A stretch of DNA of 30,820 nucleotides. Origin: Bacteroidales bacterium UBA4284 (GTDB lineage: Bacteria; Bacteroidota; Bacteroidia; Bacteroidales; UBA932). A program made the translations under genes and the position numbers. The stretch lies in contig DGVM01000179.1 in the NCBI GenBank assembly GCA_002395925.1, forward strand, positions 1 through 30,820, given 5' to 3'. Numbering within the stretch: position 1 is the stretch's first letter; each line of letters starts with the position of its first letter. This document shows, in pieces, positions 1,827-16,894 of this stretch. The notes beneath the pieces are model-generated. The model worked only from the letters and a program-made list of their open reading frames with translations, did no database searches and was not told the DNA's origin.

Positions 1827-1842
1827 CTTTTGCCTACCTTTG
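1811..1842 (+). promoter_or_regulatory. Promoter for the queuosine-salvage operon
   Basis: TTGG (1811-1814), a 20-base spacer, and TACCTTTG (1835-1842) fit the Bacteroidetes promoter consensus. The element overlaps the oppositely directed guaA promoter. The start point would be near 1845, giving a leader of about 55-60 nt that contains a GC hairpin (arms GCGGA and TCCGC around 1853-1865) and then the riboswitch candidate. Confidence 0.6.
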
Positions 1843-1870
1843 CCGCGCGCCGGCGGAAGGTCCGCGGGCA

Positions 1871-1898
1871 AGTGTAACAGGTACCACTATAAAAACTG
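1871..1898 (+). promoter_or_regulatory. Candidate preQ1-I riboswitch
   Basis: The sequence folds as the small H-type pseudoknot of the preQ1 class I aptamer. P1 is AGTG (1871-1874) with CACT (1885-1888). The 10-base loop TAACAGGTAC ends in the C expected to pair with the ligand. An A-rich tail (1889-1895) is followed by CTG (1896-1898), which pairs with CAG in the loop (1878-1880). Loop length and the CAG placement resemble the Thermoanaerobacter aptamer as I recall it; the ATAAAAA-CT tail resembles the Bacillus one. The pseudoknot ends 5 bases before the start codon, so ligand binding would block ribosome access. The genes behind it are a queuosine-precursor transporter and queF, the expected regulon. 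P1 has only 4 pairs, a weak point. Confidence 0.7.
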
Positions 1899-1903
1899 CA
1901 AAA

Positions 1904-2581
1904 ATGAAAGAAAAATTCTCTCCTGCATTTCTGCTCATGGCAGTGTTCTTCACTGTCTGTCTTATCGCATCCAATCTTTTCGCCACAAAGGTCATTTCCC
2001 TCTGGGGAATCAACCTGCCCGGCGCCGTTATCATCTTCCCCGTATCCTATATCCTGAACGACTGCATTGCAGAGGTCTGGGGGTATAGAAAGGCGCGCCT
2101 TGTCATCTGGATCGCATTCACCATGAACCTCTTCGTCGTGCTGGCCGGCCAGCTTGTAACCTTGCTTCCGGCGGCATCGTTCTGGGAAGGGGCGGAGCAT
2201 TTCAACTATATGTTCCGCATGGCTCCCAGGGTGGCATTTGCCTCCTTGCTTGCGTTCCTTGCCGGTTCCAACCTCAATGCATTCGTACTCAGCAAGATGA
2301 AGATTGCAAGCGGAGGTTCGATGTTCTGGCTGCGTGCCGTATTGTCTTCGCTCGCCGGAGAACTGGCCGACTCTCTGATCTTCATGCCGATTGCCTTCTG
2401 GGGCACTCCGGTGGCGGTTCTCGCAGGCATGATGCTCTCGCAGGTGACGTTCAAGGTAGTGTACGAGATCATCGTCCTGCCGCTTACCAGCAAAATCGTG
2501 CGCGTCATCAAGAAGTCCGAAGGAGTAGATACCTTCGACAATGGCATATCCTACAATCCTTTCAAAATCGCAGACATCTAA
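1904..2581 (+). CDS. yhhQ: Queuosine precursor transporter (YhhQ/VUT family)
   Basis: A 225-residue integral membrane protein of the vitamin-uptake-like (VUT, COG1738) family, which imports 7-deazaguanine precursors of queuosine such as preQ0/preQ1. About six hydrophobic helices are visible, with the family-typical N-terminal region SNLFATKVI, then FPVSYILNDCIAEVWGY, and a later RAVLSSLAGELADSLIF segment. The ATG at 1904 is chosen because it starts just before the first helix and sits right after the riboswitch; longer readings of the frame would run through the aptamer. queF follows 6 bases downstream. Transporter plus queF suggests that preQ0 is taken up and reduced to preQ1, which then represses the operon. 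No de novo queC/D/E genes are in the window. Confidence 0.88.
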   Translation: MKEKFSPAFLLMAVFFTVCLIASNLFATKVISLWGINLPGAVIIFPVSYILNDCIAEVWGYRKARLVIWIAFTMNLFVVLAGQLVTLLPAASFWEGAEHFNYMFRMAPRVAFASLLAFLAGSNLNAFVLSKMKIASGGSMFWLRAVLSSLAGELADSLIFMPIAFWGTPVAVLAGMMLSQVTFKVVYEIIVLPLTSKIVRVIKKSEGVDTFDNGISYNPFKIADI

Positions 2582-2587
2582 CATATC

Positions 2588-3046
2588 ATGGAATCACGCA
2601 AAGAAGAAGGCCTCCGGCAGCTTGGACGGCCCACCGAGTATCACAAGACTTACGACCCTTCGGTGCTCGAAGCATTCGAAAACCGCCATCAGGACCACGA
2701 CTACTGGGTCCGCTTCAACTGCCCTGAGTTCACGAGCCTCTGCCCCATCACCGGGCAGCCCGATTTTGCTGAAATCCGGATCAGCTACATCCCCGACGTG
2801 CGCATGGTGGAAAGCAAGAGCCTCAAGCTCTATCTTTTCAGCTTCCGCGACGAGGGCGCCTTCCACGAAGACTGCGTCAACATCATCCTCAAGGATCTCG
2901 TAAAACTTATGGATCCCAAATACATAGAGGTTACCGGATTCTTTACGCCCCGCGGCGGCATAAGCATCTATCCATATTCCAATTACGGCCGTCCGGGCAC
3001 CAGGTACGAAGAACTTGCGCTCCGCCGGCTCGAAAACAGAGAATAG
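2588..3046 (+). CDS. queF: NADPH-dependent 7-cyano-7-deazaguanine reductase QueF
   Basis: Reduces the nitrile of preQ0 to the aminomethyl group of preQ1, the precursor inserted into tRNA by Tgt. The 152-residue length fits the short, unimodular QueF class. The active-site cysteine is Cys52 in [12 protein letters not shown], with Asp59 as the acid. The NADPH-binding QueF motif [10 protein letters not shown] starts at residue 75, and the substrate-binding His93-Glu94 pair lies in GAFHE. The gene is 6 bases behind the transporter and 7 bases ahead of the CBM9-like gene, so it is part of the riboswitch-controlled transcript. Confidence 0.96.
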
Positions 3047-3710: not shown

Positions 3711-4117
3711 GCTTCTGCTTGAATCTGGCCGAGAATGGCCTCGTAGAGCTGAGGGAAACGGTCGGCAAGCACTATCGGGCAACCGTTTTCCAGAAAGCAG
3801 TGGGTGCTCGTAGCCGTGCATACGACCTTGCCGTCCACGCGCATGGTATAGGCGAAGCTGATCTTGAGTTCGCTCATGTCGGCGACCTTGAGCTCCACTT
3901 CTATTACGTCCTTGAAGGTTGTCGTGCGTTTGTAGTTGAGCGATACGGCGACGACGGGAGATACTATACCCTCGGCCTCCATGCGCTCGAAACCGTAGCC
4001 CAGGCGGTCCATCCAGTCGATGCGGGTCTCTTCCATGATGCGCACGTAGTTGGAATGATGCGTGACGCCCATACGGTCGCATTCGTAATAACGGACCTCG
4101 TGACGATAGGGTGTCAT
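3707..4117 (-). CDS. Acyl-CoA thioesterase, 4HBT/YbgC-like hotdog protein
   Basis: A 136-residue single hotdog-fold protein. The motif YYECDRMGVTHHSNYVRIMEETR contains Asp14, matching the catalytic aspartate of 4-hydroxybenzoyl-CoA thioesterase/YbgC proteins. It probably hydrolyses acyl-CoA or acyl-ACP in the cytoplasm; the substrate cannot be told from sequence. The ATG at 4115-4117 overlaps the TGA of the upstream DUF3575 gene (shared ATGA at 4114-4117), a sign of translational coupling. It is the last gene of a three-gene minus-strand operon. Confidence 0.88.
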   Translation of the reverse strand: MTPYRHEVRYYECDRMGVTHHSNYVRIMEETRIDWMDRLGYGFERMEAEGIVSPVVAVSLNYKRTTTFKDVIEVELKVADMSELKISFAYTMRVDGKVVCTATSTHCFLENGCPIVLADRFPQLYEAILGQIQAEA

Positions 4118-5331
4118 TTCTTGACGGGAGTATGAATCAGATAGACCAGGGTGACGCGGAGCGACGTAGGATCGGGCAGACGCGATATACCTGAAGTCTG
4201 ATAGATAAGAGCCGAGTCGCTGCCGGTGTTCCTGACCTGATAACGCTTGTAGTCGGAAATCATCATACCCATTGCGGCAGACAGATCGAGACGCCACCAG
4301 GGGCCGAGCGAGAAAGAATAACCGCCGCCGATGCTGCCGAGTATCTCCCTGCCCTGCACGCCCGAGTTCTTCCACTCGAGGTCATAGTAACCGGCTCCCA
4401 GATCTGCGCTGACGAACCAGCCGCGCATGACGTCGGAGCTGCGATAGGTCCAGGGCTTGATGTAGAACCTGGCGCCGAGATCGAGGTGCTGGATCTGAAG
4501 GGCGAATGAATTGTCGGCAGAAACCCACCAGGGGAAGGTGTATCCGGCATGGACGCTCCAACGGTTGCCGACGGGAACTTCGGCTCCGATATTGAGAGCG
4601 GTCGCGACATCGAAAAGCAGATTGGTAGAGAGGCCGAACAAAGCCCTGCCGCCAGAAGCGGCCGCAGCATTTCGCGCAGCCTCGCGTTGGGCCCGCCTTT
4701 GCTCTTCTTCCATCTTTTTCTGCTGCTGCTCCAAACGTTTCTGTTCCAATTTGAAAGCCCTTTCGAGGCTGTCTTTTCTGGCCTGCAGAGCCTTCTCGTC
4801 ATCGCGGCGCTGCTGAATGAGGCGCTGGTCCTCAAGGCGCTGCTGCTCTTCGAGACGCTGCTGTTCCTCCTGGCGCTTCTGCTCTTCGAGCCTCTGCTGT
4901 TCCTGCTGGCGCTTTTGCTCTTCGAGACACTGCTGTTCTTCGAGCCGCTTTTGCTCCTCGAGACGCTGCTGCTCCTGCTGGCGCTTCTGCTCTTCGAGCC
5001 GCTGCTGTTCAGAAGGCTGCCTCTGGCCGGACGAGTCCTCCTGACCGGAGACTACAGGCGGTGTAACAGTCTGATGCTGACGGGCTGACGGAGGAAGAAC
5101 CACCGCATCCTGAACGTCGTAGCGGGGTACCTCGACAGGTTTGTCGGGTGTGAACGGGATAAGGAGACCATCCTGCACGGGTGCTCCCTTCTTGTTGGAA
5201 TCGTTAACGGTCTGCTCCGTGGGAGGAGGTGTCTTGACAGTTTTCTTCTGCACGCTGCCCTGGGCAGAACCCGGCAGAGTGAAAAAAATGGCGGACAATG
5301 CCGCCACTACCTGTATGACTCCTCGCTTCAT
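4114..5331 (-). CDS. DUF3575 outer-membrane protein with Gln/Glu-rich coiled coil
   Basis: A 405-residue secreted protein with three parts. Residues 1-24 are a signal peptide ending around GSAQ. Residues 25-108 are a Pro/Gln/Val-rich low-complexity linker. Residues 109-220 are strongly charged and rich in Gln, Glu and Arg, and include five 12-residue repeats (111-170) predicted to form a coiled coil. From about 231 to the end comes a beta-barrel-like domain resembling DUF3575 (FGLSTNLLFDVATALNIGAEVPVGNRWSVHAGYTFPWW). DUF3575 proteins are Bacteroidetes outer-membrane proteins, often near fimbrial or OmpA-type genes; the molecular function is unknown. The coiled coil could span periplasm or bind peptidoglycan-linked partners, but that is inference. 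It lies 9 bases behind the small secreted-protein gene and overlaps the thioesterase start. Confidence 0.8.
   Translation of the reverse strand: MKRGVIQVVAALSAIFFTLPGSAQGSVQKKTVKTPPPTEQTVNDSNKKGAPVQDGLLIPFTPDKPVEVPRYDVQDAVVLPPSARQHQTVTPPVVSGQEDSSGQRQPSEQQRLEEQKRQQEQQRLEEQKRLEEQQCLEEQKRQQEQQRLEEQKRQEEQQRLEEQQRLEDQRLIQQRRDDEKALQARKDSLERAFKLEQKRLEQQQKKMEEEQRRAQREAARNAAAASGGRALFGLSTNLLFDVATALNIGAEVPVGNRWSVHAGYTFPWWVSADNSFALQIQHLDLGARFYIKPWTYRSSDVMRGWFVSADLGAGYYDLEWKNSGVQGREILGSIGGGYSFSLGPWWRLDLSAAMGMMISDYKRYQVRNTGSDSALIYQTSGISRLPDPTSLRVTLVYLIHTPVKK
4822..5001 (-). repeat. Tandem repeat, 5 x 36 bp, inside the DUF3575 gene
   Basis: Five in-frame 36-base units code for 12-residue blocks of the pattern [RC]LEEQ[KQ]R.[QE][ED]Q[QR], starting at protein residues 111, 123, 135, 147 and 159. 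The units are close but not identical. The 36-base period keeps the frame, so copy number could change without breaking the gene. Confidence 0.88.
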
Positions 5332-5340
5332 AGGGGCAGA

Positions 5341-5817
5341 CTATCTGAAGCTTACGTTGTTGAGTTCAAAACACGCTCCGGTGCTCTTTACCTCCAGCTG
5401 AGGGCAGAGGACGCAGAGTTTGACCTTTGCCAGTGCAGTAGCCTCCTTGGCCACTCCCTTGACGAGGATATGGCATTTCACAGGAACCGACGGCGGGAAG
5501 GTGTAAGCGCTGTACTGGTCTGTAAGGTTCTTGTTCGCGACAGAGACCTGAATGCGCTGAAGCTCATACACGTTTCCGTCGTTGTCGTATGCGACGGAAC
5601 CGCCCATGCCGGTCTGATAAATACCGCCGACAAGGTTGATGAGGACCTCTCCCTGCGAAAGATTCGTAAGCAGAACGGTAAGCTCCACATCGCTGCCGAG
5701 AAGCTGGACATCGCGAAGCTGAAGCCGCATGTCCTTGCTGGGCGTGGTGATAGTCGTCTGGGCGAACGCTGCTACGCCAAGGAGCAACGCTACGATTATG
5801 GTTGTGATTTTCTTCAT
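5341..5817 (-). CDS. Small secreted protein of unknown function
   Basis: A 158-residue protein with a clear signal peptide (MKKITTIIVALLLGVAAFAQ). The mature part is mostly beta-like (MRLQLRDVQLLGSDVELTVLLTNLS) and resembles a small immunoglobulin-like or periplasmic beta-sandwich domain, but I cannot assign a family. Two cysteines near the end (LCVLCPQL) and one more (GACFEL) could form a disulphide. The ATG at 5815-5817 is chosen over an upstream one because it opens the signal peptide and lies 27 bases after a promoter. It is the first gene of an operon with the DUF3575 protein and the thioesterase; likely location is periplasm or outer membrane. Confidence 0.7.
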   Translation of the reverse strand: MKKITTIIVALLLGVAAFAQTTITTPSKDMRLQLRDVQLLGSDVELTVLLTNLSQGEVLINLVGGIYQTGMGGSVAYDNDGNVYELQRIQVSVANKNLTDQYSAYTFPPSVPVKCHILVKGVAKEATALAKVKLCVLCPQLEVKSTGACFELNNVSFR

Positions 5818-5844
5818 AATCTGAACATAATTCACAAATATCTG

Positions 5845-5875
5845 CAAATGTAAGGAAAGTGTTTCATAAAAACAA
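5845..5875 (-). promoter_or_regulatory. Promoter for the DUF3575 operon
   Basis: On the minus strand TTGT (5872-5875), a 19-base spacer and TACATTTG (5845-5852) match the Bacteroidetes promoter pattern. The expected leader is about 24 nt. Confidence 0.55.
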
Positions 5876-5903
5876 TTAAATCTTTCACAACTTATGAACA
5901 GAC

Positions 5904-7700
5904 TTACGAAGCAGTTATTTCCAGGGTAACTGTACGCTTGCCACCGGACTTAAGAGTGACGACCGCTTCTACGGTATGGCTGCCGGCGCTTAGTACTACA
6001 TGCGGGCCGTCAACCGGTTCATCATCAAAGGACCACGAGGTTGACTCTACCGTAAGAGACTCCGGGCAAATAAGTTTGAGTGCAAAACGCTCTCCGGCCC
6101 GATACATTCCTCCTCCGGGATTTGCAATCACCGGATAGTCCAGTTCATCGCTGGGAATGCTGACGTTGAAAGACACTTTGGAAGCCGAATAGCTGATGCC
6201 GGAAAGGCTCACATCGGACTTGATGCCATTCCAACTACATGCAGTATAAGATGTTACAGTACTCTTTCCAGGGAAAGGTATCCGGGGCTCTACTGAAGAA
6301 TCGAAGTAATAATCACCGTCCGACTCCTGTGTATAACCATACATGAGGTTGTCTTGTTCGGCAGCGGGAACGACGTAGCAGCAGGGATGAGAGCCGTTTG
6401 CGTTTATGGAATTGGAGTTGCTCCAATCGCTCCAGAGTGTTGCCGCCGCAATCGAAGAATAGCCCACGGTAACCTTGCGGGACGATTTGTCGATATGCGT
6501 AACGATAAGGCCGTGAGCAGGAAGATGCTTGTCCCATCCATTGGAATTACGGCACTCGTAAACGAAGTACTCACCGTCCTGGTCGGTGGGAGTTTTGTAC
6601 GCGACATTGTCATCGACGGAGCCGAGCGTCACGGTCCCTGACTGCGTAAACTCCTTGATGGAGTCCTCGCCTATCCAGCCCAGCATTATCCTTTCTTCCA
6701 CCGTAAAATATGGAGGCGTACGGCCGTCGTTGTTGTAGGGCCCGCTGTCCATGGTGGAGAAAGAAAACATGCCGGCGCTGTAGCCGTTCTCGGAGTAGTC
6801 CGTATCATAAAAATCGGGAAGGCCCATGGCGTGTCCGAACTCGTGGCAGGCGGTACCGATTCCGCACATCTTTCCCTCGTTGGTTCCATAGCCGTCCAAT
6901 TCATTGGTACAGGCGTACTTATCTACAGTCTTCCCGTCGAGTGTAAAGGATTTTCCGGCGGCAGAGAGTTCCCATTGATGAGGCCAGATGGAATCATCGT
7001 CATCGGAATCGGCTTCTCCGTAACCTGCATAGTACATGAACACGAGGTCCACCGCACCGTCACCGTCATTGTCGTACTGGCTGAAATCGATTTGGGAATC
7101 AAGTGACTTGCAACCGTCCACCACAGCCTGCTCGGGCCTCACGTCATTGCCGTCGCTGTCATTCCCGCCATAGTAAGACTTTGTTTTGGAAAGGGTTACA
7201 GGGCCAAACACATCGAATATCGGTTCAAAGTAGCCATGCGAATTATCATAATAGAAATCTCTTGCGGAACCGGTCCCACCGTTGGCACTGTATCCGGGCT
7301 GGTTGAGCAGGGCGGTAAAATCGGCATTCGCATCGGAGCTGTTGAATGACTGGTCGGAGAACTGTACGAGGATCACCAGGAAGCGCTTCTGGCCAACGGC
7401 TACGTGTCCGCCGGCCTTGCGAACGTATGCACGCGCCTGGCGTTTTGCCTTGGCGGCGGATCTGATGGTCTTGAGACGGCTGCTCCCGGAAACGGGCTTC
7501 AAGAAACCGTCCGAATCTCTCTCTACTACCTGCCCCGCGGCGTTGGTAAGCCAGTGGCCGAACTCGTCGCCATGTTTGTACACGGTAACGACGGTGCCGT
7601 CGGGCTGCTTATATTGGAATGCTCCCCGGCGGGCAGGAACGGCAAATGCCGAAACGCCCAGGACGATGGAGAGAAGTATTGCTGACGCTAATTTTTTCAT
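5904..7700 (-). CDS. M6 family secreted metalloprotease
   Basis: A 598-residue exported protease. Residues 1-20 form a signal peptide. A propeptide-like region (about 21-100) precedes the M6 domain, which begins near KRFLVILVQFSD. The zinc site is HEFGHAMGLPD: His286, Glu287, His290 and Asp296. A calcium-loop-like YDNDGDGAVDLVFMYYAG lies at 209-226, usual for the M6 (immune inhibitor A) family. After the catalytic domain comes a C-terminal immunoglobulin-like domain (about 515-598). It probably degrades host or environmental protein outside the cell or at the surface. It sits 9 bases behind the lipoprotein gene and is surely co-transcribed with it. There is no clear type IX secretion tail, so the export route past the outer membrane is open. 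Confidence 0.92.
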   Translation of the reverse strand: MKKLASAILLSIVLGVSAFAVPARRGAFQYKQPDGTVVTVYKHGDEFGHWLTNAAGQVVERDSDGFLKPVSGSSRLKTIRSAAKAKRQARAYVRKAGGHVAVGQKRFLVILVQFSDQSFNSSDANADFTALLNQPGYSANGGTGSARDFYYDNSHGYFEPIFDVFGPVTLSKTKSYYGGNDSDGNDVRPEQAVVDGCKSLDSQIDFSQYDNDGDGAVDLVFMYYAGYGEADSDDDDSIWPHQWELSAAGKSFTLDGKTVDKYACTNELDGYGTNEGKMCGIGTACHEFGHAMGLPDFYDTDYSENGYSAGMFSFSTMDSGPYNNDGRTPPYFTVEERIMLGWIGEDSIKEFTQSGTVTLGSVDDNVAYKTPTDQDGEYFVYECRNSNGWDKHLPAHGLIVTHIDKSSRKVTVGYSSIAAATLWSDWSNSNSINANGSHPCCYVVPAAEQDNLMYGYTQESDGDYYFDSSVEPRIPFPGKSTVTSYTACSWNGIKSDVSLSGISYSASKVSFNVSIPSDELDYPVIANPGGGMYRAGERFALKLICPESLTVESTSWSFDDEPVDGPHVVLSAGSHTVEAVVTLKSGGKRTVTLEITAS

Positions 7701-7709
7701 GACAGCTCC

Positions 7710-9413
7710 TTACTTTTTGATAATGAAACCCTTGCCGCTGCCGTCGCCAAGCCAGACGCGGGGGCCTTCTTCTTTTACGACCTTGACGGAATACGTGGTT
7801 CCGGACAGCACGCTGCTGCGTCCCTTGCGCCAATTGACGGTAATCGTCAGTTTGTCACCCTTGACGAGGGTATTACGGTAACCGGTGATTTCCACCTGCT
7901 CCTTGGACTCGGGCTCGAGAATGGTGAAAGTCAACACTCCAGAGTCGGAATACTGACGGCAGTACTGGTCGGTACCGGGGACATAAATCCTTGTGTTGTT
8001 GCCTTGATAGATGCCGTATCCGAAGTTGGACTCCATCGGATCCTCGGCGGCAGGAGCCCCCGACGATCCCTTCCTGTAAACCGTAACGGGGTCTTTGAGG
8101 TTGGAACCCGTCCCATAGGCACTGAACCTGGGGCTTCCAGAATTCTCCCTTATTATGTTCGAAAGTCCGCTGCCGGCAGTTATGGTCGCTTCTCCGGTGG
8201 AAGTTATGTCAAACGTCCAGCTGCTGAAAGAGTCAATACCGTCCTTCTCAGTGAGGTTGTTTCCGGAGGAACGGGTGCTGAGATACTTGCCGTTTTCCGC
8301 CTGCAAGGCCCAGGTTCCGCCTTCGACTCCTGCGACAAGCGTAAACACGGTGGCGGAACCGATGTCCGTCATGGTTTCGGACTCCGTCTTGACCTGGACT
8401 CTCTGCCGGTATTTGTCGCTGTACTGCTCGCCCATGGCATAGTTGCCGGACTTGTTCGCAATGATTATCTGGTCGCCGGCACACAGCTGGGAGGCGTCTT
8501 TTACCAGTACGAACGAATCGCTTCCGGAAAGGGGCTCTATGCCATTCATATCGACCTTTATGACTGCGATGCGGCCCGAGGTAAAGCGGCGCCCTGCAGG
8601 GAACTCGATCTCCTTGACGAAGGAGCCCTGGTCGGTATAGACCGTAACGACCGCAATCTGTCCGGACATATCGACCGGAGCGCATGCGAACCAGATGTCG
8701 GAAGTCTTGGATGTATTGATGGTGAGCGTCGAAGACGCGCCGTTGTCGGTGAACTCATGGCCGCTCGAGCAATTCCAGTACCAGTCGCCCACGAATGGCG
8801 CAGTGGCGGTAATCTCAATTTTGCTGACAGTAGCGCCGCCGAGCTCGAGATTTTCGAAAGACAGCCTGCCATAGGCGGTCAGGTGACTGAAATGCATGTT
8901 CACCTTCTCGGGAGCGCTGTCGTACTCGCTGCTGCTTGCCGCAATTATCATCGCCGCTTCGTCCACGGAGGAGTCGAGCGGAGTCTGTACCGCAGGAATG
9001 CTTATGCTCCATGCTTTGCGGCTCTCGCTGAGGGTCTTGGCGGCAGAAGCGGGACTGACGGCATAAAACACGTATGGAGCCGCATCGGCGGCAAAGTCGA
9101 AGTCGGCTGCAAAGCTGGCATGTCGGAAATCTTCGCTCGCAATCACGGAGGCTTCCTTGACGGAGGAATACCCCAGCGCAAGCTTTACATAGGTGTCGTT
9201 TTCTGTCCAGAAAGTGGGATATACGCCGCCTTCTCCCTGACCGAAAGCGGCTTTAGTATCTGCCTGGGAGGCTTCGAAAAGCACTGTCCTGCCGGTTGCA
9301 GGGCCGGAATACTTCATTTCTTCCGTTCCTTCATTGTGGCAGGAGGCCAGGAGCAGCAGAGCGGCCACCAGCAAAGATGCTGTATGTCTGAATGTCGCAA
9401 ATGATTTATTCAT
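7710..9413 (-). CDS. Large surface lipoprotein, fimbrillin-like N-terminal half
   Basis: A 567-residue SpII lipoprotein: LLLLASC with acylated Cys25, followed by HNEGTEE, an acidic start compatible with surface export. Residues about 40-290 look like the fimbrillin/Mfa-like beta-sandwich of Bacteroidetes (TKAAFG...YPTFWTENDTYVKLA, then FSHLTAYGRLSFENLELGGATVSKIEI, and FPAGRRFTSGRIAVIKVDM). Residues about 300-450 form a second domain (DQIIIANKSGNYAMG...GTWALQAENGKYLSTRSSGNNL...SPRFSAY) similar to ligand-binding beta modules found in phylum surface proteins. A third beta domain ends the protein. The role is probably adhesion or capture of a substrate for the M6 protease encoded next; the precise function is unknown. 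It follows a 47-residue small ORF by 11 bases. Confidence 0.75.
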   Translation of the reverse strand: MNKSFATFRHTASLLVAALLLLASCHNEGTEEMKYSGPATGRTVLFEASQADTKAAFGQGEGGVYPTFWTENDTYVKLALGYSSVKEASVIASEDFRHASFAADFDFAADAAPYVFYAVSPASAAKTLSESRKAWSISIPAVQTPLDSSVDEAAMIIAASSSEYDSAPEKVNMHFSHLTAYGRLSFENLELGGATVSKIEITATAPFVGDWYWNCSSGHEFTDNGASSTLTINTSKTSDIWFACAPVDMSGQIAVVTVYTDQGSFVKEIEFPAGRRFTSGRIAVIKVDMNGIEPLSGSDSFVLVKDASQLCAGDQIIIANKSGNYAMGEQYSDKYRQRVQVKTESETMTDIGSATVFTLVAGVEGGTWALQAENGKYLSTRSSGNNLTEKDGIDSFSSWTFDITSTGEATITAGSGLSNIIRENSGSPRFSAYGTGSNLKDPVTVYRKGSSGAPAAEDPMESNFGYGIYQGNNTRIYVPGTDQYCRQYSDSGVLTFTILEPESKEQVEITGYRNTLVKGDKLTITVNWRKGRSSVLSGTTYSVKVVKEEGPRVWLGDGSGKGFIIKK

Positions 9414-9424
9414 GGTGGAACGGA

Positions 9425-9568
9425 TTAAAAGACTCCCCAGTCATCTTCGACTCCGGAGTCTATTCCGGAATCTTCGAGGAGATTGTACTGCAAACAATTA
9501 TCTGTCCGGAAGAGTTCCGGAGCATAATAAGGGCGTTTGGAAAATGTGGTTGATATATCGGATTTCAT
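9425..9568 (-). CDS. Small protein (47 residues), unknown
   Basis: A short frame between a well-formed promoter and the lipoprotein gene, with ATG at 9566-9568 and TAA at 9425-9427. The product starts MKSDISTTFSKRPYYAPELF, has one cysteine (TDNCLQYNLLEDSG) and ends in an acidic tail GIDSGVEDDWGVF. The pattern (about 40-50 residues, Tyr/Pro-rich start, central Cys/Leu stretch, acidic Gly/Asp/Trp end) is one I associate with short ORFs often found in front of lipoprotein and surface-protein genes in Bacteroidetes. No signal peptide or membrane segment is visible. It could be a leader peptide or a small structural or regulatory protein. Position between promoter and gene, and clean spacing, support real translation. 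Confidence 0.62.
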   Translation of the reverse strand: MKSDISTTFSKRPYYAPELFRTDNCLQYNLLEDSGIDSGVEDDWGVF

Positions 9569-9583
9569 AAATATTTTAGCCTA

Positions 9584-9615
9584 CAAAGATACAAATAAAA
9601 CCCGGCATAAACCAA
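9584..9615 (-). promoter_or_regulatory. Promoter for the small ORF-lipoprotein-M6 operon
   Basis: On the minus strand TTGG (9612-9615), a 20-base spacer and TATCTTTG (9584-9591) give a strong Bacteroidetes promoter. The small ORF begins 15 bases after the -7 box. Confidence 0.7.
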
Positions 9616-9622
9616 CGTGAGC

Positions 9623-11431
9623 CTAAGAAATACTTCCGCCGGTATAAAGCTCCCAGTATTTGCCGCGCTTGTCGAGGAGTTCGAAATGCTTGCCGGCCTC
9701 GATGATGCGTCCCTTCTCGAGCACGATGATGTAGTCGGCGTCACGTACCGTGGAGAGTCGGTGCGCGATTACAAAACTCGTGCGCCCCTTCATTATTCCG
9801 TCCATACCCTTCTGGATGAACTTTTCCGTGCGGGTATCGATAGATGAAGTAGCCTCGTCGAGTATGAGTACGGGAGGATCGGCGACGGCCGTCCTCGCAA
9901 TGCTGAGCAGCTGTCTCTCGCCTGCGCTGAGCGAACCTCCGTCGGAATCTATGACGGTGGCATAGCCGTCGGGCAGACGCCTGATGAAGCTGTCGGCATG
10001 CACCAGCCTGGCAGCCGCGATGCACTCCTCGTCGGTAGCGTCCAGACGGCCGAAACGTATATTTTCCATTACGGTGCCGCTGAACAGGTTCGTCTCCTGC
10101 AGCACTATTCCGAGCGAGCGCCGCAGCGAATCTTTGCGGATGCGGCGTACGTCGAATCCGTCAACGGTAATAATTCCGTCGGAAGTGTCGTAGAAACGGT
10201 TTATCAGGTTGGTAATCGTGGTCTTACCGGCTCCCGTACCACCCACGAAAGCAATCTTCTGGCCGGGATAAGCCGTCAGCGTAATGTCGTAAAGCACCTG
10301 GACACCGGGGACATAGCCAAAATCAACATCCTTGAGGCTCACCAGTCCCTCCTGAGGCACATACCTGTCGCCGTCTTTCCACTGCCAGATCCTGGTATCC
10401 TGCCCCGAGTCTGTCTTTCCCGGACGGCAGACCAGCTCCACGCTGCCCTCATCGCCCTCGGAGGCTTCGTCGAGCAGGGCGTAAACCCGGTCGGCGCCGG
10501 CCGACGCCATAGCTATATTGTTGACTTCCTGGCTGATTTGCGCGATGGGACGCGAAAAGTTCTTATGCAGCGTAAGGAAGGACACAAGCGTACCGAGACT
10601 AAGTACCGCGGAGCCGTAGTGCAGGGCGATAACCGCTCCGAAAATGGCAATCAGCACGTAGCCCAGATTGGCGATGCCGGCATTGATGGGCATGACCGTA
10701 TTGGCGACCCGGTTGGCCTTGAAAACGCTCTGGAACAGCTCTTCGTTGATACCGTCAAATCCCTCCATGGCCTGTTTTTCGTGGCTGAAGACCTTTACGA
10801 CCTTCTGTCCGGACACCATTTCCTCTATGTATCCGTTGACGCGCGCCATATTCTCCTGCCGGCCGCGGAAGTACTTCCGGGAATACTTTGACATGACCAC
10901 CGCTACCACAAGGGCGCTGCCGGCGCACAGCAGCGACAGGGCGGTAAGCGGCACGCTCAGCACCAGCATGCTCACGAAGGTGGAGAGCAGCGTGATGACT
11001 GCGCTGAACAGGTGCGGAATCGTGCGTCCGACCATCTGCCGGAACGTGTCCATATCGTTGGTGAACACCGACATGATCTCGCCGTGCGGGCGGGAGTCAA
11101 AAAAGCGCAGGGGCAGGCTCATCAGGTGCTCGAAGGCGTCTGTGCGCAGCTGCCGAATAATCCCCTGCTCCACTTTTATCATAAGGAAGTTGAACAGGAA
11201 CGAGGCCAGCACGCCGACAAGCAGCACGGCAGCCAGACGCAGGAGCGCCCCGGCCAGGGGCGAGAAATCGGGAACCGCAGCCTCTGTGAGCGGAAGGATG
11301 TACCCGTCGATGAGCGTACGGGTAAACAGCGTCATGGCAAGGGTGCAGAGCGTCGAAAGCACGATGAGCAGCGCTACTGCAAGCAGCGTCCATTTCCAGT
11401 CCCGCAACATATGTTGTATGAGGCGTTTCAC
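9623..11431 (-). CDS. ABC exporter half-transporter, catalytic subunit
   Basis: A 602-residue type IV ABC exporter: about six transmembrane helices in residues 15-310 and a nucleotide-binding domain from about 365. Walker A is GGTGAGKTT (397-405), the Q-loop is VLQETNLFSGT, the signature is a changed LSAGE (501-505), Walker B is VLILDE with intact catalytic Glu526, and the switch histidine is His557 (IAHRLS). An insertion of roughly 25 residues rich in charged amino acids (about 325-355) lies before the ATPase domain. Its ATG overlaps the stop codon of the partner gene (ATGA at 11428-11431). The pair resembles the LmrCD/TM287-288 heterodimers that export drugs, lipids or peptides; the substrate is not predictable. 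Confidence 0.92.
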   Translation of the reverse strand: MKRLIQHMLRDWKWTLLAVALLIVLSTLCTLAMTLFTRTLIDGYILPLTEAAVPDFSPLAGALLRLAAVLLVGVLASFLFNFLMIKVEQGIIRQLRTDAFEHLMSLPLRFFDSRPHGEIMSVFTNDMDTFRQMVGRTIPHLFSAVITLLSTFVSMLVLSVPLTALSLLCAGSALVVAVVMSKYSRKYFRGRQENMARVNGYIEEMVSGQKVVKVFSHEKQAMEGFDGINEELFQSVFKANRVANTVMPINAGIANLGYVLIAIFGAVIALHYGSAVLSLGTLVSFLTLHKNFSRPIAQISQEVNNIAMASAGADRVYALLDEASEGDEGSVELVCRPGKTDSGQDTRIWQWKDGDRYVPQEGLVSLKDVDFGYVPGVQVLYDITLTAYPGQKIAFVGGTGAGKTTITNLINRFYDTSDGIITVDGFDVRRIRKDSLRRSLGIVLQETNLFSGTVMENIRFGRLDATDEECIAAARLVHADSFIRRLPDGYATVIDSDGGSLSAGERQLLSIARTAVADPPVLILDEATSSIDTRTEKFIQKGMDGIMKGRTSFVIAHRLSTVRDADYIIVLEKGRIIEAGKHFELLDKRGKYWELYTGGSIS

Positions 11432-13164
11432 GGCTGGTCGAAGTCGGCCTCCCCTCCGGATGTCTGCATGTCGTATATGTCTTTGTAGATGCCCCCCTCG
11501 GCCAGCAGCTCCTCATGCGTACCGACCCCGCAGATGCGTCCGTCGTCCATGACTACAATGCGGTCGGTGTCGCGTATGCTCAGGATGCGCTGCGAAATGA
11601 TTATCAGCGTAACGTCGGGTATGCGGGTGGCAAAGGTTTCGCGTATGCGTGCGTCGGTGGCCGTATCGACGGCGCTGGTGGAATCGTCGAGCACCAGCAC
11701 CTTGGGACGGCCCAGCAGGGCACGCGCTATGCAAAGGCGCTGCCTCTGGCCTCCGGAGAAATTGGTTCCGCCCTGATCGACCTTGGTATCAAGCCCTTGG
11801 GGCAGATCGGCGACAAAATCGGCGGCGGCAAGGCGGCAGGCCTCCATACATTCCTGGGGGCTCGCATCGGGATTGCCCCAGCGAAGGTTTTCCAGCAGGG
11901 TGCCGGAGAAGAGCGTATTCTTCTGAAGCACTACCGCGACCGCGCTGCGTATTGCGGAGAACGAATATCTGCGTACGTCGGTACCGCCGACTTTGACAGT
12001 TCCCCGGGAAGGGTCGTACAGACGGCTCACGAGGCTTACGAGAGTGGTTTTGCCGCATCCCGTACCGCCGATGATGCCTATCTTCTCACCGCTGCGTATA
12101 TGCAGATTGACGTCGCTGAGGGCAGGATTGCCTCCGGCGGAGTAAGAGAAGTTCACGCCGTCCATGTCGATGCTGCCGTCGGGTACGTCCATGACAGGGT
12201 CGGGATCTTCCTTCATCGAGGGATCCCTGTCAAGGACCTCCGCGATGCGTTTGCCGCTGGCGGCGCTCTGGGTAAGCATGACGAATATCATTGACAGCAT
12301 CATCAGCGAACTCAGAATCTGCATCTGGTACGTGAACAGTGAGGTCAGTTCTCCGGTGGTAAGCCCGCCTCCTACTATAAACTTGGCTCCGAACCACGAA
12401 AGCGCTATCATGGAACCGTAGGTCACGATGTTCATGACGGGCTGGTTGAAGGCCACTATGACTTCCGCCGCTACGTTGAGCCGGTAGATGACATCGACGG
12501 CGGCACGGAACCTCAGGCTCTCGTGCTTCTCGCGCACGAAGGACTTGATGACGCGTATGCCTCCCACGCCCTCGCGCACAACCGCGTTGAGGTCGTCGTA
12601 CTTGCGCATGAGCTCTGTGAAGACCTTCATGGCACGCGAGACGATGAAATACATGGAGACGGAAAGGACCACCATCGCCGCAAGGAACACCAGGCTAAGG
12701 GAGGCGTTGATGAAGAAACTCATGAACATGCCGGCAAGCACGTTGAGCGGAGCACGGACGCTGATGCGAAGGAGCATCTGGAAGGCGCCCTGCAGATTTG
12801 CGACGTCGGTGGTCATACGGGTCACCAGGCCGGCGGTGCTGAAAGCATCGATGTCGGCAAAGGAGAATGTCTGTATGCGGGCGAACATGGCTCTGCGAAG
12901 ATTCATCGCAAAGCCGGCGCTGCTCCGGGCGCCCTCGCGGCCCGACATGATTCCGAAAAAGAGGCTGACGGCGGCTATAACCACCATAAGCACGCCGTAC
13001 TTCCATACGGCGGCCATGTCCGAGGCCATGATGCCCTTGTCGATGAGGGAAGCGGTGACGTAAGGGATAAGCACGCCCATCACGACTTCCAGCGCCGTCC
13101 ACACCGGAGTCATTATCGCGGACAAACGAAATTGCCCGACATGTTTAAGGAGCGTCCTCAACAT
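11428..13164 (-). CDS. ABC exporter half-transporter, degenerate-site subunit
   Basis: A 578-residue ABC exporter subunit with six transmembrane helices (about 15-300) and a nucleotide-binding domain. Walker A is GGTGCGKTT (366-374) and the signature is a good FSGGQ (469-473), but Walker B reads VLVLDD, so the catalytic Glu is Asp494, and the switch histidine is replaced by Gln525 (IISQRI). These changes are typical of the non-hydrolysing site in heterodimeric exporters. The start is the ATG at 13162-13164: a TTG three codons upstream lies inside the -7 promoter box. This makes the message nearly leaderless. It is the first gene of a two-gene operon. Confidence 0.92.
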   Translation of the reverse strand: MLRTLLKHVGQFRLSAIMTPVWTALEVVMGVLIPYVTASLIDKGIMASDMAAVWKYGVLMVVIAAVSLFFGIMSGREGARSSAGFAMNLRRAMFARIQTFSFADIDAFSTAGLVTRMTTDVANLQGAFQMLLRISVRAPLNVLAGMFMSFFINASLSLVFLAAMVVLSVSMYFIVSRAMKVFTELMRKYDDLNAVVREGVGGIRVIKSFVREKHESLRFRAAVDVIYRLNVAAEVIVAFNQPVMNIVTYGSMIALSWFGAKFIVGGGLTTGELTSLFTYQMQILSSLMMLSMIFVMLTQSAASGKRIAEVLDRDPSMKEDPDPVMDVPDGSIDMDGVNFSYSAGGNPALSDVNLHIRSGEKIGIIGGTGCGKTTLVSLVSRLYDPSRGTVKVGGTDVRRYSFSAIRSAVAVVLQKNTLFSGTLLENLRWGNPDASPQECMEACRLAAADFVADLPQGLDTKVDQGGTNFSGGQRQRLCIARALLGRPKVLVLDDSTSAVDTATDARIRETFATRIPDVTLIIISQRILSIRDTDRIVVMDDGRICGVGTHEELLAEGGIYKDIYDMQTSGGEADFDQP

Positions 13165-13170
13165 AACGGG

Positions 13171-13178
13171 CAAAGTTA
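13171..13178 (-). promoter_or_regulatory. -7 element of the ABC exporter promoter
   Basis: TAACTTTG on the minus strand matches TAnnTTTG. Only 6 bases separate it from the start codon, so transcription should begin about 4 bases before, or at, the ATG. No convincing -33 box is seen at 19-21 bases. Confidence 0.5.
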
Positions 13179-13205
13179 ATAAATATTTGAATTATGGAAT
13201 GGTTG

Positions 13206-15116
13206 TCAAGCGTAAGAATGCATGCCGCCAAGTATCAGATTAACGCCGAAATAGGTAATAAGCACGCACAGGAAAGCTCCGATCGTAAACCAGTGGAAGA
13301 AACGGGAGTTCCTGAATGGCCGCAGCGCATCTGCGTGAAGGGTGAAGGAATACACGAGCATGGTGATGAGGGCCCAGGTCTCCTTGGGATCCCATGCCCA
13401 GTAACTTCCCCAGGAAATGTTCGCCCACACGGCGCCCAGGAAGGTTCCGAACGTCAGCAGGAACACTGCCGGGTAAAGGAACACGAGGCTCAGGTCCTTG
13501 AGAGTGGCGCTCACCTCGCGCGACGATACCGACACTCCCATTATACCGTTGAAGGCTACCAGTCCGAACAAAGTATAGGACAACATCATGCTCAGTACGT
13601 GTATCGACAGCAGCGGCGAGCGCAGCACAGGCATCAGGGGCATGATCTGGGGGCTGACTCCGGCCTTGCTGGCGAGCAGCATAGTAAAGCCCGCCACAAG
13701 GAATCCGAGCGGCTGGACCAGAGGGAAGCGCTTGGACAGCAAGACCATAGCAATTGTCGCAAACCAGGCCATCAGCATCATGACGTTGTACCGCCCCACG
13801 TAAGGACCCGTCCCGGACACCCACCAGCGCAGCCCGATGACCACGGACAGATACATCCACAGAAGCAGAGCTACGACAGTCGCTGCAAGCACAATCCACT
13901 GCGGCATGCGCCTGCGTTTGCTCAGATACACGCAATTGAGGACGAAAAGCAGGATGCCGAGGGTAAGGCTCAGGATGAACTGCACACATGGACGGGCGAT
14001 ACGGATGTATGCCCGCTCCGCCTTGACCTTGGCCTCGGAAGGGATAACTCCGGCGGCTGTCTTCTGCTGATAGGCCTTGATGCCGCCGATGACTTTGAGG
14101 GCGTCGGCCTCGTTGCCTTCCGCAAGACAGTTGTTTATGACTTCGGGAGACTTTCGTACGAATGTCCACAGATCGTCGCTGTCGTAGATGCCGGCAGGCA
14201 GGTCTCCGTTTGCGGAATACCAGCTGACGGTGCCAAGCGAATCGGCTATAGGGAATATCTTGAGTTTGGAAAGCTCTTCGAGCGTAGCGTCGAGGCCTTT
14301 TTCCTGAAGGTAGGTATCGAACGGGCACACGCGGTGACCATAATAGATGTACATGCTCCCGAGAGCCTCCTTGACTTCCCTGCTGCCGGCGGCCGCTCCT
14401 GCATTTGACGGAATCAGTACGAGAAGCAGCATTGCGGCAGAGGCCTCAAGCACCCTGCGAAGCGCAGCCCTGAATGCTGAGTCTTTCTGGAAGAAGAAAC
14501 CTATCATGCTTATAAGCAACAAGATATAACCGGTATAGCTGATGCCGACGCCCCACGGGTCATGGCTCACGGCAAGGATGCTGCCGTTGCCGTCTTCATC
14601 GTAGTCTGCCTGATAGAAGCGATAGCCCTTGTACTTCAGGATGTTGTTCATGGAAATGACATAGGGTTCACCGTCCACGGTAACGTCGCTGCGGAATCCG
14701 GAAGGCATCTTGGAGCCATGATGGTATTCCACCGTAAAGCCGTCAAGCTTCACGCTGAAAGGAAGCTTGACCTCAGTATCGTCCTCCAGCTCGAAGGCGT
14801 CAAGAGTTTCGCCCTCCCGCAGATGCATGCTTCCGCTCTTGGAGAAGAGGTGCGTGGTGAGTGCTCCGGCAAGGATTACCATGAAGGCAAGGTGTATTCC
14901 GAAGGTGAAAACCCTTTTGGGAGCCCCCCGCATGATGATATAAGCGAAACCGGAAATGGCGGCTACCGCCCAAAGCACGATGAAAGCGGGGTTATGATAC
15001 ACCAGGCGCATGGCCTCAGGGGTTCCCTGCAGCTTTTCAAGAACCGTGGCAGCCGTCATCGCTGCGATGAGGGCTGCCATAGTTCCGTAAGTCAGATACT
15101 TAAGTATTTTTTGCAT
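13206..15116 (-). CDS. ccsBA: Fused cytochrome c synthetase CcsBA (ResB-CcsA)
   Basis: A 636-residue membrane protein for system II cytochrome c maturation, which exports haem and attaches it to CxxCH motifs in the periplasm. The N-terminal ResB/CcsB-like part has several helices with a conserved histidine in TFGIHLAFM (His75), then a soluble segment (about 240-370). The C-terminal CcsA part holds the haem-handling WWD motif WGSYWAWDPKETW (569-581), flanked by histidines at 506 (SIHVLSMMLSY) and 594 (SFTLHADAL). Both halves in one chain is common in Bacteroidetes. It follows the di-haem oxidoreductase gene by 8 bases, so the synthetase is co-expressed with a protein it must mature. Confidence 0.92.
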   Translation of the reverse strand: MQKILKYLTYGTMAALIAAMTAATVLEKLQGTPEAMRLVYHNPAFIVLWAVAAISGFAYIIMRGAPKRVFTFGIHLAFMVILAGALTTHLFSKSGSMHLREGETLDAFELEDDTEVKLPFSVKLDGFTVEYHHGSKMPSGFRSDVTVDGEPYVISMNNILKYKGYRFYQADYDEDGNGSILAVSHDPWGVGISYTGYILLLISMIGFFFQKDSAFRAALRRVLEASAAMLLLVLIPSNAGAAAGSREVKEALGSMYIYYGHRVCPFDTYLQEKGLDATLEELSKLKIFPIADSLGTVSWYSANGDLPAGIYDSDDLWTFVRKSPEVINNCLAEGNEADALKVIGGIKAYQQKTAAGVIPSEAKVKAERAYIRIARPCVQFILSLTLGILLFVLNCVYLSKRRRMPQWIVLAATVVALLLWMYLSVVIGLRWWVSGTGPYVGRYNVMMLMAWFATIAMVLLSKRFPLVQPLGFLVAGFTMLLASKAGVSPQIMPLMPVLRSPLLSIHVLSMMLSYTLFGLVAFNGIMGVSVSSREVSATLKDLSLVFLYPAVFLLTFGTFLGAVWANISWGSYWAWDPKETWALITMLVYSFTLHADALRPFRNSRFFHWFTIGAFLCVLITYFGVNLILGGMHSYA

Positions 15117-15124
15117 TCGTCAGG

Positions 15125-16891
15125 TCAAATGGATTCGATGAATTGCACGACGGCGTCGCGATCGGCCTTGGAAAGATTGTAGAATTTTTCTGTTGACTGA
15201 TAGGCGTCGCTCTTCTTGGAATAGCCATGCCACATGATGGCCTCCACAACGGTACGCGCACGGCAGTCGTGCAGGCGGTCGGAGGCTCCTGTATTGGTGT
15301 ACGACAGTCCCCTGCCCCAAAGCGGCGTGGTGCGGCACCAGGTACCATGGATGTCGTTCTTCATGTACATGCGGTGCTGGATGAAGTCGGAGTAGGGCCA
15401 GATGGTCTGGTTGGCATACCGCGGCAGAGGTTTGCCTTCGTTCATGGCAGGAGACCAGTAATTGTCGTCTCCTGTCTTCCAGTCAGGTTTGTGGCAGGAG
15501 GCACAGCCCATCTCCATGAACAGCTGCTTGCCCCTCTGGACCCTCTTGTCGTTGAGGTTGCGCGCACGGGGGATGCTGAGTCCGCGGTGCCATACCATGA
15601 AATCGTAAAACTGGTCGGCGCTCATTTCGGGCTCGAAATTGTGATATGCGTTGTCGAACTGGTTCGTAGAAGGGCTCAGAAGGGCCAGGACGGCCTCGGA
15701 AATCTCGGCGTCGGTTACGTTTCCATTGCCGTCAACGTCAACATAATACGGAGAGTTTGCCCCTTCTGTACGGATTGCGTCGAGTACGCTCTGGGTCTTG
15801 CTCATCTTATTGGCCCAGGCCACGGTGGTATAAAGGAAAGGACGGTCGGGCCTTGAGACGTTGGTGATGTTCCAGATAGCATTGGCTCCTGCGCCGTCCT
15901 GCAGGGTTCCGCGGGTCATGGCATAGGTAAAGCGCTTGATGGGCTTATAGGTGCCGCGCGCCACGTAGGTACCGTCGGCAAGGATGCCGTCGCCATACTG
16001 CCCGGGCTGCCAGTTGCCATAGTAAGCGCTTGCAGCAAAGTCATTTGCGCCTTTATCCCAGAAGGCAGGGTTGAGCTCGGTATAAGGTGCCTCCGCCCTG
16101 TACTGTTCGCGTATGGCTTCTTCGGGGATTGCGTCGATGAGGCCTGTGCCTATGACTCCGATGGTGGATTCGAGACGGAATCCGAGGGTCTTGCCCATAG
16201 ACTCGGCGGTGTCGTAGGGATTGGGATCGGTATTGAACGCCTCGCGGGTGATGTTGAGTTCGGGATACTGAAGTTCATACTCTTCGCCGTCCGCGAACTT
16301 CATCGGCAGTCCGCTCTCCATTTCGGAGACGGGAATCCAGTTTATGCTGATGCCCTTTTCGTCGATAGGAGGCAGGAAGGGGTCCATGGACATGGTCTGG
16401 GGCATGCCGGTAACCTCGGACACATAGGGTCCGTCGTTGCTTCCGGGCTCGTTGGCATAATAAACCACCAGCAGATAGCCGTTGCCGAAAGAACGGGAGG
16501 TATTGGCTTCATAGACCACCTGACGTTTGCCATGGCCGTATCCCGGATGGCAGTCCAGACAGGACTTGCGAACGCTTGCCGGGCCGAGTCCCTTGAAGGG
16601 AGCCGTATTGAGCGTTACGTTGCGCTCGAAGAACATCTCCCCGTGGTTGAACTGGGCGGTGAGTCCCTGCTGCGTTACGGCAGGAGTCTCGTCTTCGTAA
16701 CAACCTTCCGTAACGTTCATCGTGGTGCCGAGCATACCGCCCGGATACCATTCTTCGGCTGTAAAATTGCCTACGGCCTTGCCTACGTATTTGGAATCGG
16801 AATGGCGGGAATCTTCATACTGCCAGTCGCCGTAGCAGGCCTGGAGGGCCAGCACGGCGGCTGCAAGAAACAATGAATCTTTGATTTTCAT
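15125..16891 (-). CDS. Di-haem oxidoreductase lipoprotein (DUF1111/thiol oxidoreductase-like)
   Basis: A 588-residue lipoprotein (ALQAC, Cys19) with two c-type haem motifs, CLDCH at 111-115 and CASCH at 463-467. The C-terminal PLWGRGLSYT...DRLHDCRARTVVEAIMWHG matches the LHDGRA-type signature of the DUF1111 di-haem family, related to MauG/cytochrome c peroxidases. An EF-hand-like calcium loop DVDGNGNVTDAE lies at 385-396, apparently an insert between the haem domains. In proteobacteria this family occurs next to imelysins in iron-regulated clusters, where the haem protein may oxidise or reduce the metal. Here it sits 3 bases behind an imelysin gene and 8 bases ahead of ccsBA. Redox partner and true substrate are unknown; hydrogen peroxide or thiol chemistry is an alternative. 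Confidence 0.87.
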   Translation of the reverse strand: MKIKDSLFLAAAVLALQACYGDWQYEDSRHSDSKYVGKAVGNFTAEEWYPGGMLGTTMNVTEGCYEDETPAVTQQGLTAQFNHGEMFFERNVTLNTAPFKGLGPASVRKSCLDCHPGYGHGKRQVVYEANTSRSFGNGYLLVVYYANEPGSNDGPYVSEVTGMPQTMSMDPFLPPIDEKGISINWIPVSEMESGLPMKFADGEEYELQYPELNITREAFNTDPNPYDTAESMGKTLGFRLESTIGVIGTGLIDAIPEEAIREQYRAEAPYTELNPAFWDKGANDFAASAYYGNWQPGQYGDGILADGTYVARGTYKPIKRFTYAMTRGTLQDGAGANAIWNITNVSRPDRPFLYTTVAWANKMSKTQSVLDAIRTEGANSPYYVDVDGNGNVTDAEISEAVLALLSPSTNQFDNAYHNFEPEMSADQFYDFMVWHRGLSIPRARNLNDKRVQRGKQLFMEMGCASCHKPDWKTGDDNYWSPAMNEGKPLPRYANQTIWPYSDFIQHRMYMKNDIHGTWCRTTPLWGRGLSYTNTGASDRLHDCRARTVVEAIMWHGYSKKSDAYQSTEKFYNLSKADRDAVVQFIESI

Positions 16892-16894
16892 AAC

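Follow-up and report, generated by a model that had tools for sequence, protein, structure and literature searches.

A candidate type II-like class I preQ1 riboswitch with a short P1 helix in the yhhQ–queF leader of Bacteroidales

A pseudoknot before the yhhQ–queF operon

Does the short pseudoknot that can be drawn just before a queuosine-precursor transporter gene of Bacteroidales bacterium UBA4284 belong to a preQ1 riboswitch, and if so, how could it control translation from a leader in which no Shine–Dalgarno (SD)-like sequence is seen? The locus lies in a window of 30,820 nt (contig DGVM01000179.1, positions 1 to 30,820), by which we mean the whole stretch of DNA that was analysed. On its plus strand, yhhQ (1904–2581), encoding a 225-aa queuosine-precursor (preQ0/preQ1) transporter that matches TIGR00697 and PF02592, is followed by queF (2588–3046), encoding a 152-aa preQ1 synthase of the QueF-II type that matches TIGR03139 and PF14489. 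The guaA gene (196–1773) is divergent from yhhQ, and the minus strand at 4114–18115 carries genes for a DUF3575 protein with a Q/E-rich repeat, an M6 peptidase-like protein, two ABC transporters, a cytochrome c assembly protein with ResB, a di-haem oxidoreductase-like protein and an imelysin.

The leader reads AGUG UAACAGGUAC CACU AUAAAAA CUG and continues with CAAAA up to the ATG (1904). By reading of this sequence, an H-type pseudoknot of 28 nt can be folded at 1871–1898 on the plus strand. P1 pairs AGUG (1871–1874) with CACU (1885–1888), and its closing G1874 corresponds to G5 of the aptamer of Thermoanaerobacter tengcongensis (Tte; sequence from PMC10639078). The 10-nt loop 1, UAACAGGUAC (1875–1884), contains the 5′ strand of P2, CAG (1878–1880); here, U1875 is equivalent to Tte U6, C1878-A1879-G1880 to C9, A10 and G11, and A1883-C1884 to A14 and C15, with C1884 at the position of the specificity base. 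Loop 3, AUAAAAA (1889–1895), ends with A1895, the equivalent of Tte A29, and its A-run spans −13 to −9 relative to the yhhQ ATG. The 3′ strand of P2, CUG (1896–1898), completes the knot with CAG. In PMC11625349, ligand specificity in such aptamers is assigned to the C, the reading of edges to U6 and the A of loop 3, and the floor of the pocket to the closing G-C pair. The sequence-only reading had proposed a 28-base pseudoknot with a 4-bp P1, a CAG/CTG pairing and an A-rich tail, placed 5 bases before a YhhQ-type transporter gene that is followed by queF. Re-reading of the pairings and lengths, the positions of the P2 end and the ATG, and the protein-family matches bear this description out.

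Upstream of P1, a GC-rich 5′ hairpin, P0 (1849–1869, plus strand), ends one nucleotide before P1 and has one mismatch in the window; the 34-nt stretch bearing it folds with −15.2 kcal/mol. A perfect stem of at least 5 bp abutting P1 was found in 62.5% of 80 yhhQ leaders, compared with 20.4% of shuffles, and the window scores only 3 in this test because of its mismatch. Within the 26 nt 5′ of P1 in relatives, the hairpin recurs though its sequence changes. A promoter-like TAnnTTTG box, TACCTTTG (1835–1842, plus strand), which we take to be a Bacteroidetes −7 box, starts 36 nt upstream of P1, its first base being also that of the stretch marked out in the sequence-only reading, so that the leader probably holds little besides the 5′ hairpin and the pseudoknot. 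The box occurs at the 36-nt spacing in 18 of 31 leaders (the window and loci L001–L030) and at most 90 nt from P1 in 58 of the 80, the latter being a count without shuffle control.

Conservation, covariation and gene linkage

From the window sequence alone, chance is not beaten: a loose descriptor of the fold and its key bases gives three further matches in the window, and the minimum-free-energy z-score of 1847–1930 is −1.16 in folding without pseudoknots. The comparison with relatives is more informative. The yhhQ loci were taken as the best 80 of 407 candidates from a protein search, and the leaders compared were those of the window and 79 of these 80 loci (L052 was omitted as too short). 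Using a regular expression that was composed after the leaders had been inspected and that does not require P2, we found the motif directly before yhhQ in 80 of 80 leaders, at no other place in 0.9 Mb (both strands counted) and once in 16,000 shuffled leaders. The A-run of loop 3 is present in every one of the 80. The pocket bases, i.e. the closing G-C pair of P1, the U after its 5′ strand and the C before its 3′ strand, are kept in the window and the protein-found leaders, as are the A and C where loop 3 meets P2; the pattern and descriptor searches described below demanded most pocket bases, so that invariance in their sets is by construction. P2 is lost in L014, and L210 carries a degenerate element. 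A contig titled Mailhella (L075), presumably meaning a desulfovibrio relative, carries a Bacteroidales-type yhhQ with its leader and is likely a binning error.

Alignment of orthologous leaders in search of compensatory changes, the check suggested along with the sequence-only reading, revealed covariation in both helices, in counts that are inflated by kinship among the sequences. In alignment A1, P2 alone was counted because MAFFT displaced P1 by two columns in rows with long loops. P2 shows 32 two-sided changes there against 11.7 in shuffles, with none of 500 shuffles as high, and its pairing of 75.7% falls to 15–41% on sliding the partner strand. The forms seen are CAG/CUG, CUAG/CUAG, CUUG/CAAG and CAAG/CUUG, and in Bacteroides UCUAG or UCCAG pairs with CAGGA apart from a single A-A step. 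For P1, the counts come from A2 (29 rows) and A4 (63 rows). All 29 distinct aptamers in A2 have P1 paired, its outer pair swapping between A-U and C-G, and P1 and P2 together show 30 two-sided changes against 9.3 in shuffles (0 of 500 as high). The rows of A4 were selected with a descriptor that itself requires a paired P1; this alignment gives 68 two-sided cells against 20.8 (again 0 of 500), and its third P1 pair varies between U-A and A-U. A script removed from A4 ten aptamers in which loop 1 or loop 3 is long, together with two chance matches; L033 and L037 were left out as well, and the window was substituted for the identical L002. Further P1 helices among the descriptor matches (CGAG/CUCG, AGAG/CUCU, AGGGG/CCCCU, GGGAG/CUCCC and CGGGUG/CACCCG) indicate that P1 covaries at inner pairs too. 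Over 83 distinct rows, the Watson–Crick length of P1 is 4 bp in 70, 5 bp in 11, and 6 bp and 3 bp in one each.

The linkage to queuosine genes was assessed in 393 Bacteroidales genomes, some of which carry loci already in the protein-found yhhQ set, using a hold-out pattern that fixes GUGU, ACCAC and AAAAAC and leaves the outer P1 pair and P2 free. All 64 matches, found in 57 genomes, were inspected. Upstream of queuosine genes lie 54 of them, 45 at yhhQ and 9 at queC (two of the nine queC products were verified as TIGR00364); the outer P1 pair is formed in every one of these and P2 in 53, with at least 3 bp and with G-U and one A-A step accepted. Among the remaining 10 matches, the P1 pair forms in four, P2 in one and both in none. 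A reversed-pattern control in the same genomes also matched, about 48 times as counted by hand from the table. The pattern is thus unspecific by itself, and the argument rests on gene linkage and on pairing at the free positions. Five of the nine queC leaders have 72–172 nt between the aptamer and the start, and some also contain stretches that could pair with the flank of the aptamer. In two queC leaders, L103 and L106, 72–75 nt separate a short-P1 aptamer from queC, and UCUUCCG (L103) or CUUCCG (L106), before and in P1, can pair with a downstream CGGAAGA or CGGAAG; judged by eye, these stretches are a possible switch helix.

A yhhQ gene was found in 141 of the 393 genomes. Of the 66 yhhQ matches of at least 193 bits (table count), 45 carry the pattern, a further 13 are matched by the general descriptor, four are variants recognised by eye (L204, L207, L208 and L212), one is the degenerate L210, and one contig ends too early; no element was found before the other two of these close orthologues (L167 and L209). 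In the L204 leader, loop 3 of the pseudoknot carries a large insert. Over 296 Bacteroidota genomes, the pattern gave 21 matches in 20 genomes, three of which are real (G001, G237 and G245) and are shared with the Bacteroidales sample. For the remaining 18, the 2–3 kb fetched contain no queuosine gene, and in none of the 17 scored for pairing (G301, which is L086, was left out) do the outer P1 pair and P2 occur together; the outer pair alone occurs in L200 and L231, and P2 alone in L192, L230 and L234. The recurring matches L198–L202 are related sequence from one gene region. The loose descriptor gives about 22 chance matches in 1.6 Mb, and five descriptor matches that had appeared linked to queF were judged to be chance.

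The sequence-only reading had also raised the possibility of a divergent variant that standard covariance models fail to pick up, with a search by the class I model RF00522 as its check, and the model was indeed silent. No RF00522 match was found in the window at the gathering score, nor at E ≤ 10 in 1600–2200; no preQ1 family matched at gathering in the loci of 18 relatives; and RF00522 exceeded its 39-bit cut-off in 0 of the 393 Bacteroidales genomes, with 15 candidates per genome scored under stricter filters, while B. subtilis (type II) passes. The miss can be understood from the consensus of RF00522, which resembles type I (UUCG...UC), and the 39-bit gathering score that the window element does not reach is a property of the database, not a defining one. 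Sub-threshold RF00522 matches were obtained in seven whole genomes; in G001, the one checked, they are not at yhhQ. Our own covariance model, R2, was run on 24 sources and recovered the window and 12 of the 23 others at E ≤ 1 (L162 at just 13 bits). It missed L183, L204, L207, L208, L210, L211 and L212, and also the type I-like L151, L152, L221 and L222. Over the 296 Bacteroidota genomes (24 candidates per genome scored), R2 gave six matches: G001, G237 and G245 are real, and the 3 kb fetched for L084, L085 and L086 hold no queuosine gene. In summary, comparison with relatives settles the question of chance, confirming at the level of sequence that the pseudoknot in the window is real.

The start-codon region and the proposed mechanism

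The third P2 base lies 1–7 nt upstream of the script-chosen start codon in 80 of 80 yhhQ leaders, and 5 nt upstream in the window, which means that a terminator cannot fit. SD-like tetramers (GGAG, GAGG, AGGA and AAGG) are absent from the window leader. They occur at −18 to −4 in 14 of the 80 leaders and in 28 when counted to −1, many of the 28 having the Bacteroides CAGGA tail; for leaders of the window's CUGC type, the corresponding counts are 0 and 1 of 27. These numbers suggest that the SD is dispensable, though not absent everywhere. That the P2 strand is free to vary while its pairing is kept is what one would expect from selection acting on the knot and not on an SD. Adenine is found at −12 in 72, at −11 in 75, at −10 in 78 and at −9 in 75 of the 80 leaders, and at −13 in only 45; position −12 falls inside loop 3 in 78. 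According to PMC9976891, Bacteroidia ribosomes generally fail to recognise the SD, the tail of their 16S rRNA being sequestered, and PMC6847099 describes adenines at −12 and −13 that stimulate initiation in Flavobacterium johnsoniae. Translational control by a tail overlapping the ribosome landing site had been proposed from the sequence at the outset. The position of the tail, which ends 5 nt before the ATG, agrees with this proposal, which should, however, not be taken to mean sequestration of an SD, as the leader has no SD-like tetramer.

Taking sequence and context together, we consider it highly probable that 1871–1898 is the aptamer of a short-P1, type II-like class I preQ1 riboswitch that represses translation of yhhQ–queF. 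In this mechanism, preQ1 would pair with C1884 and be held by U1875 and A1895. Binding would lock the pseudoknot, with loop 3 docking in the minor groove of P1 and P2 closing, and would thereby hide from the 30S subunit both the A-tract and the nucleotides that immediately precede the ATG. The platform in the window would thus do without an SD, the A-tract at −13 to −9 being loop 3 itself. Plentiful preQ1 would lower translation of yhhQ and, via the operon, of queF, closing a feedback loop in which YhhQ imports preQ0/preQ1, QueF makes preQ1 and preQ1 shuts the operon. To the broader proposal we give about even chances: that this is a widespread Bacteroidales riboswitch, with neither SD nor terminator, whose ligand-holding A-rich loop is at the same time an SD-free initiation enhancer that is hidden on preQ1 binding.

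The gene content of relatives bears on what the operon supplies. A queF gene starts at most 700 nt downstream of yhhQ in 60 of 80 loci and is not within 700 nt in 18, the other two being contig ends. A strong tgt match was present in nine of ten relatives' draft genomes. For queC, PF06508 gave weak matches in five of the ten, four of them above the Pfam cut-off, at 20–28 bits over about 120 of 210 model positions; the presence of queC was judged improbable on account of these weak partial matches, one of which, fully read, is argininosuccinate synthase-like (by its best NCBIfam matches, all under their cut-offs). With queC apparently absent and tgt in nine of the ten, the yhhQ–queF operon may be the sole source of queuosine precursor, and import plus QueF may be the only route to queuosine in these relatives.

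These relatives thus seem to salvage preQ0. This, together with the apparent preference of E. coli YhhQ for preQ0 (PMC5372724) and the fact that the Tte aptamer has been crystallised with either ligand, preQ0 or preQ1 (PMC11625349), would suit a riboswitch of the same fold and control whose natural ligand is preQ0 or another 7-deazaguanine. We regard this as improbable, since every pocket base of the preQ1 mode is kept, among them the floor pair G5-C16, the O6 of which accepts the 7-aminomethyl group, and the element also lies upstream of queC, where the pathway product is the more natural signal. No more probable is an action mainly via transcription, by pausing at the pseudoknot and early termination, or via mRNA decay, in place of a block of initiation. 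The type II aptamer of B. subtilis acts on transcription and pauses polymerase (PMC11625349), and both the long spacers of five queC leaders and the recurrent hairpin abutting P1 could be read in this sense; the gap between the pseudoknot and yhhQ, however, leaves no room for a terminator in the window or in any of the 80 leaders.

An A-tract upstream of the start enhances translation in F. johnsoniae (PMC6847099), and the element could on these grounds be a plain translational enhancer, or a ligand-free protein-binding site, that merely resembles an aptamer. Yet an enhancer needs neither the covariation of P1 and P2 nor the constant C before the P1 3′ strand, and the blind pattern matches with both helices lie solely at yhhQ and queC, which makes this reading very unlikely. 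A chance pseudoknot in one leader only, as the additional loose-descriptor matches in the window might suggest, deserves almost no weight: it is refuted by the occurrence of the motif in all 80 leaders, by the 54 of 64 blind matches at queuosine genes and by the covariation. Repression of yhhQ–queF translation by preQ1 is the reading that we carry forward.

With regard to earlier work, PMC11625349, citing a 2014 survey, reports both type I and type II of class I from Bacteroidota, and leaders such as these may already be among the sequences of that survey (McCown et al. 2014). A regulon survey of 2013 describes queuosine riboswitches as largely confined to Firmicutes (PMC3766115), and a word search for 'preQ1' in the main text of a B. 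thetaiotaomicron transcriptome paper (PMC7366714) found no instance. The 2024 review PMC11625349 predicts that translational riboswitches exist in bacteria that make no use of the SD and states that the absence of the SD hampers searches for them. The present element belongs to a phylum of this SD-independent kind, and it comes from an order in whose sampled genomes RF00522 stayed below its cut-off throughout. If the broader proposal is true, the element would be a natural, covariation-backed, SD-independent translational riboswitch as predicted in the preQ1 field. It provides a system in common bacteria of the gut that is simple and open to experiment, and a route to annotating the control of queuosine-precursor uptake there.

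Relation to known preQ1 riboswitches

The original assignment to the preQ1-I type is supported by the covariation, the pocket bases and the linkage to yhhQ and queC, and by sequence and context we file the element as a type II-like class I preQ1 riboswitch. With preQ1-II (RF01054) and RF02680, which we take to be preQ1-III, it would share the ligand and the target genes, whereas those folds are different and larger; neither family matched in the window at gathering or in 1600–2200 at E ≤ 10. The type III aptamer of E. coli has the same AC specificity motif, but PMC11625349 gives it UU after the P1 5′ strand and a buried AAGG Shine–Dalgarno, and the window has U-A and no SD. With type I, the element shares the class, the gene function and an A-rich loop 3. 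Type I is described in the same review as having UC before the P1 3′ strand, UU after the P1 5′ strand and two bound ligands, whereas the window has AC and U-A at these places. A second preQ1-I form, type I-like, was observed in Bacteroidales, with P1 AGACAG/CUGUCU, the loop UUCG..AACCAUC or close to it, and a long leader. It lies before queC in eight of ten fetched loci with sub-threshold RF00522 matches (L151–L155, L157, L159 and L160) and before two divergent yhhQ genes (L221 and L222); these type I-like forms reach 25–30 bits in RF00522, under its cut-off.

The closest likeness is to type II (Tte and B. subtilis), with which the element has in common the H-type pseudoknot, the AC before the P1 3′ strand, the A-rich loop 3, the queuosine genes downstream and equivalents of U6, G5-C16, C15, G11-C30 and A29. 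Compared with Tte, loop 1 is likewise 10 nt long, and U6, C9, A10, G11, A14, C15, A29 and C30 are identical in the window. The AC before P1 3′, the mark of type II according to PMC11625349, is present in 83 of 84 distinct descriptor rows, the exception (L101) being a chance match; AC was demanded by the hold-out pattern, not by the descriptor. The element differs in that P1 is mostly 4 bp, compared with 5 bp in Tte and B. subtilis (a standard read from these two sequences), in that loop 3 is usually 7 nt, and in that the P2 3′ strand is CUG, CUAG, CAAG, CUUG or CAGGA and need not be a Shine–Dalgarno. Position 7 is A1876, so the C7+-G11-C30 ceiling triple of Tte cannot form as such; in 78 of the 84 descriptor rows, this position is A (40) or G (38). 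The C7+ triple is a Tte feature that the B. subtilis aptamer lacks (PMC11625349), and its absence here may not be type-defining. The label is kept at 'type II-like' because P1 has 4 bp and not about 5, and the element is ranked as a variant because of this shorter P1 and the dispensable SD. One relative, L211, has a 5-bp P1, and its loop 3 and first four tail bases, UUAACAAAACAAG, are those of Tte. Since R2 misses L211, it is the reading of its letters, and not a model score, that suggests this leader as a bridge from the short-P1 form to known type II.
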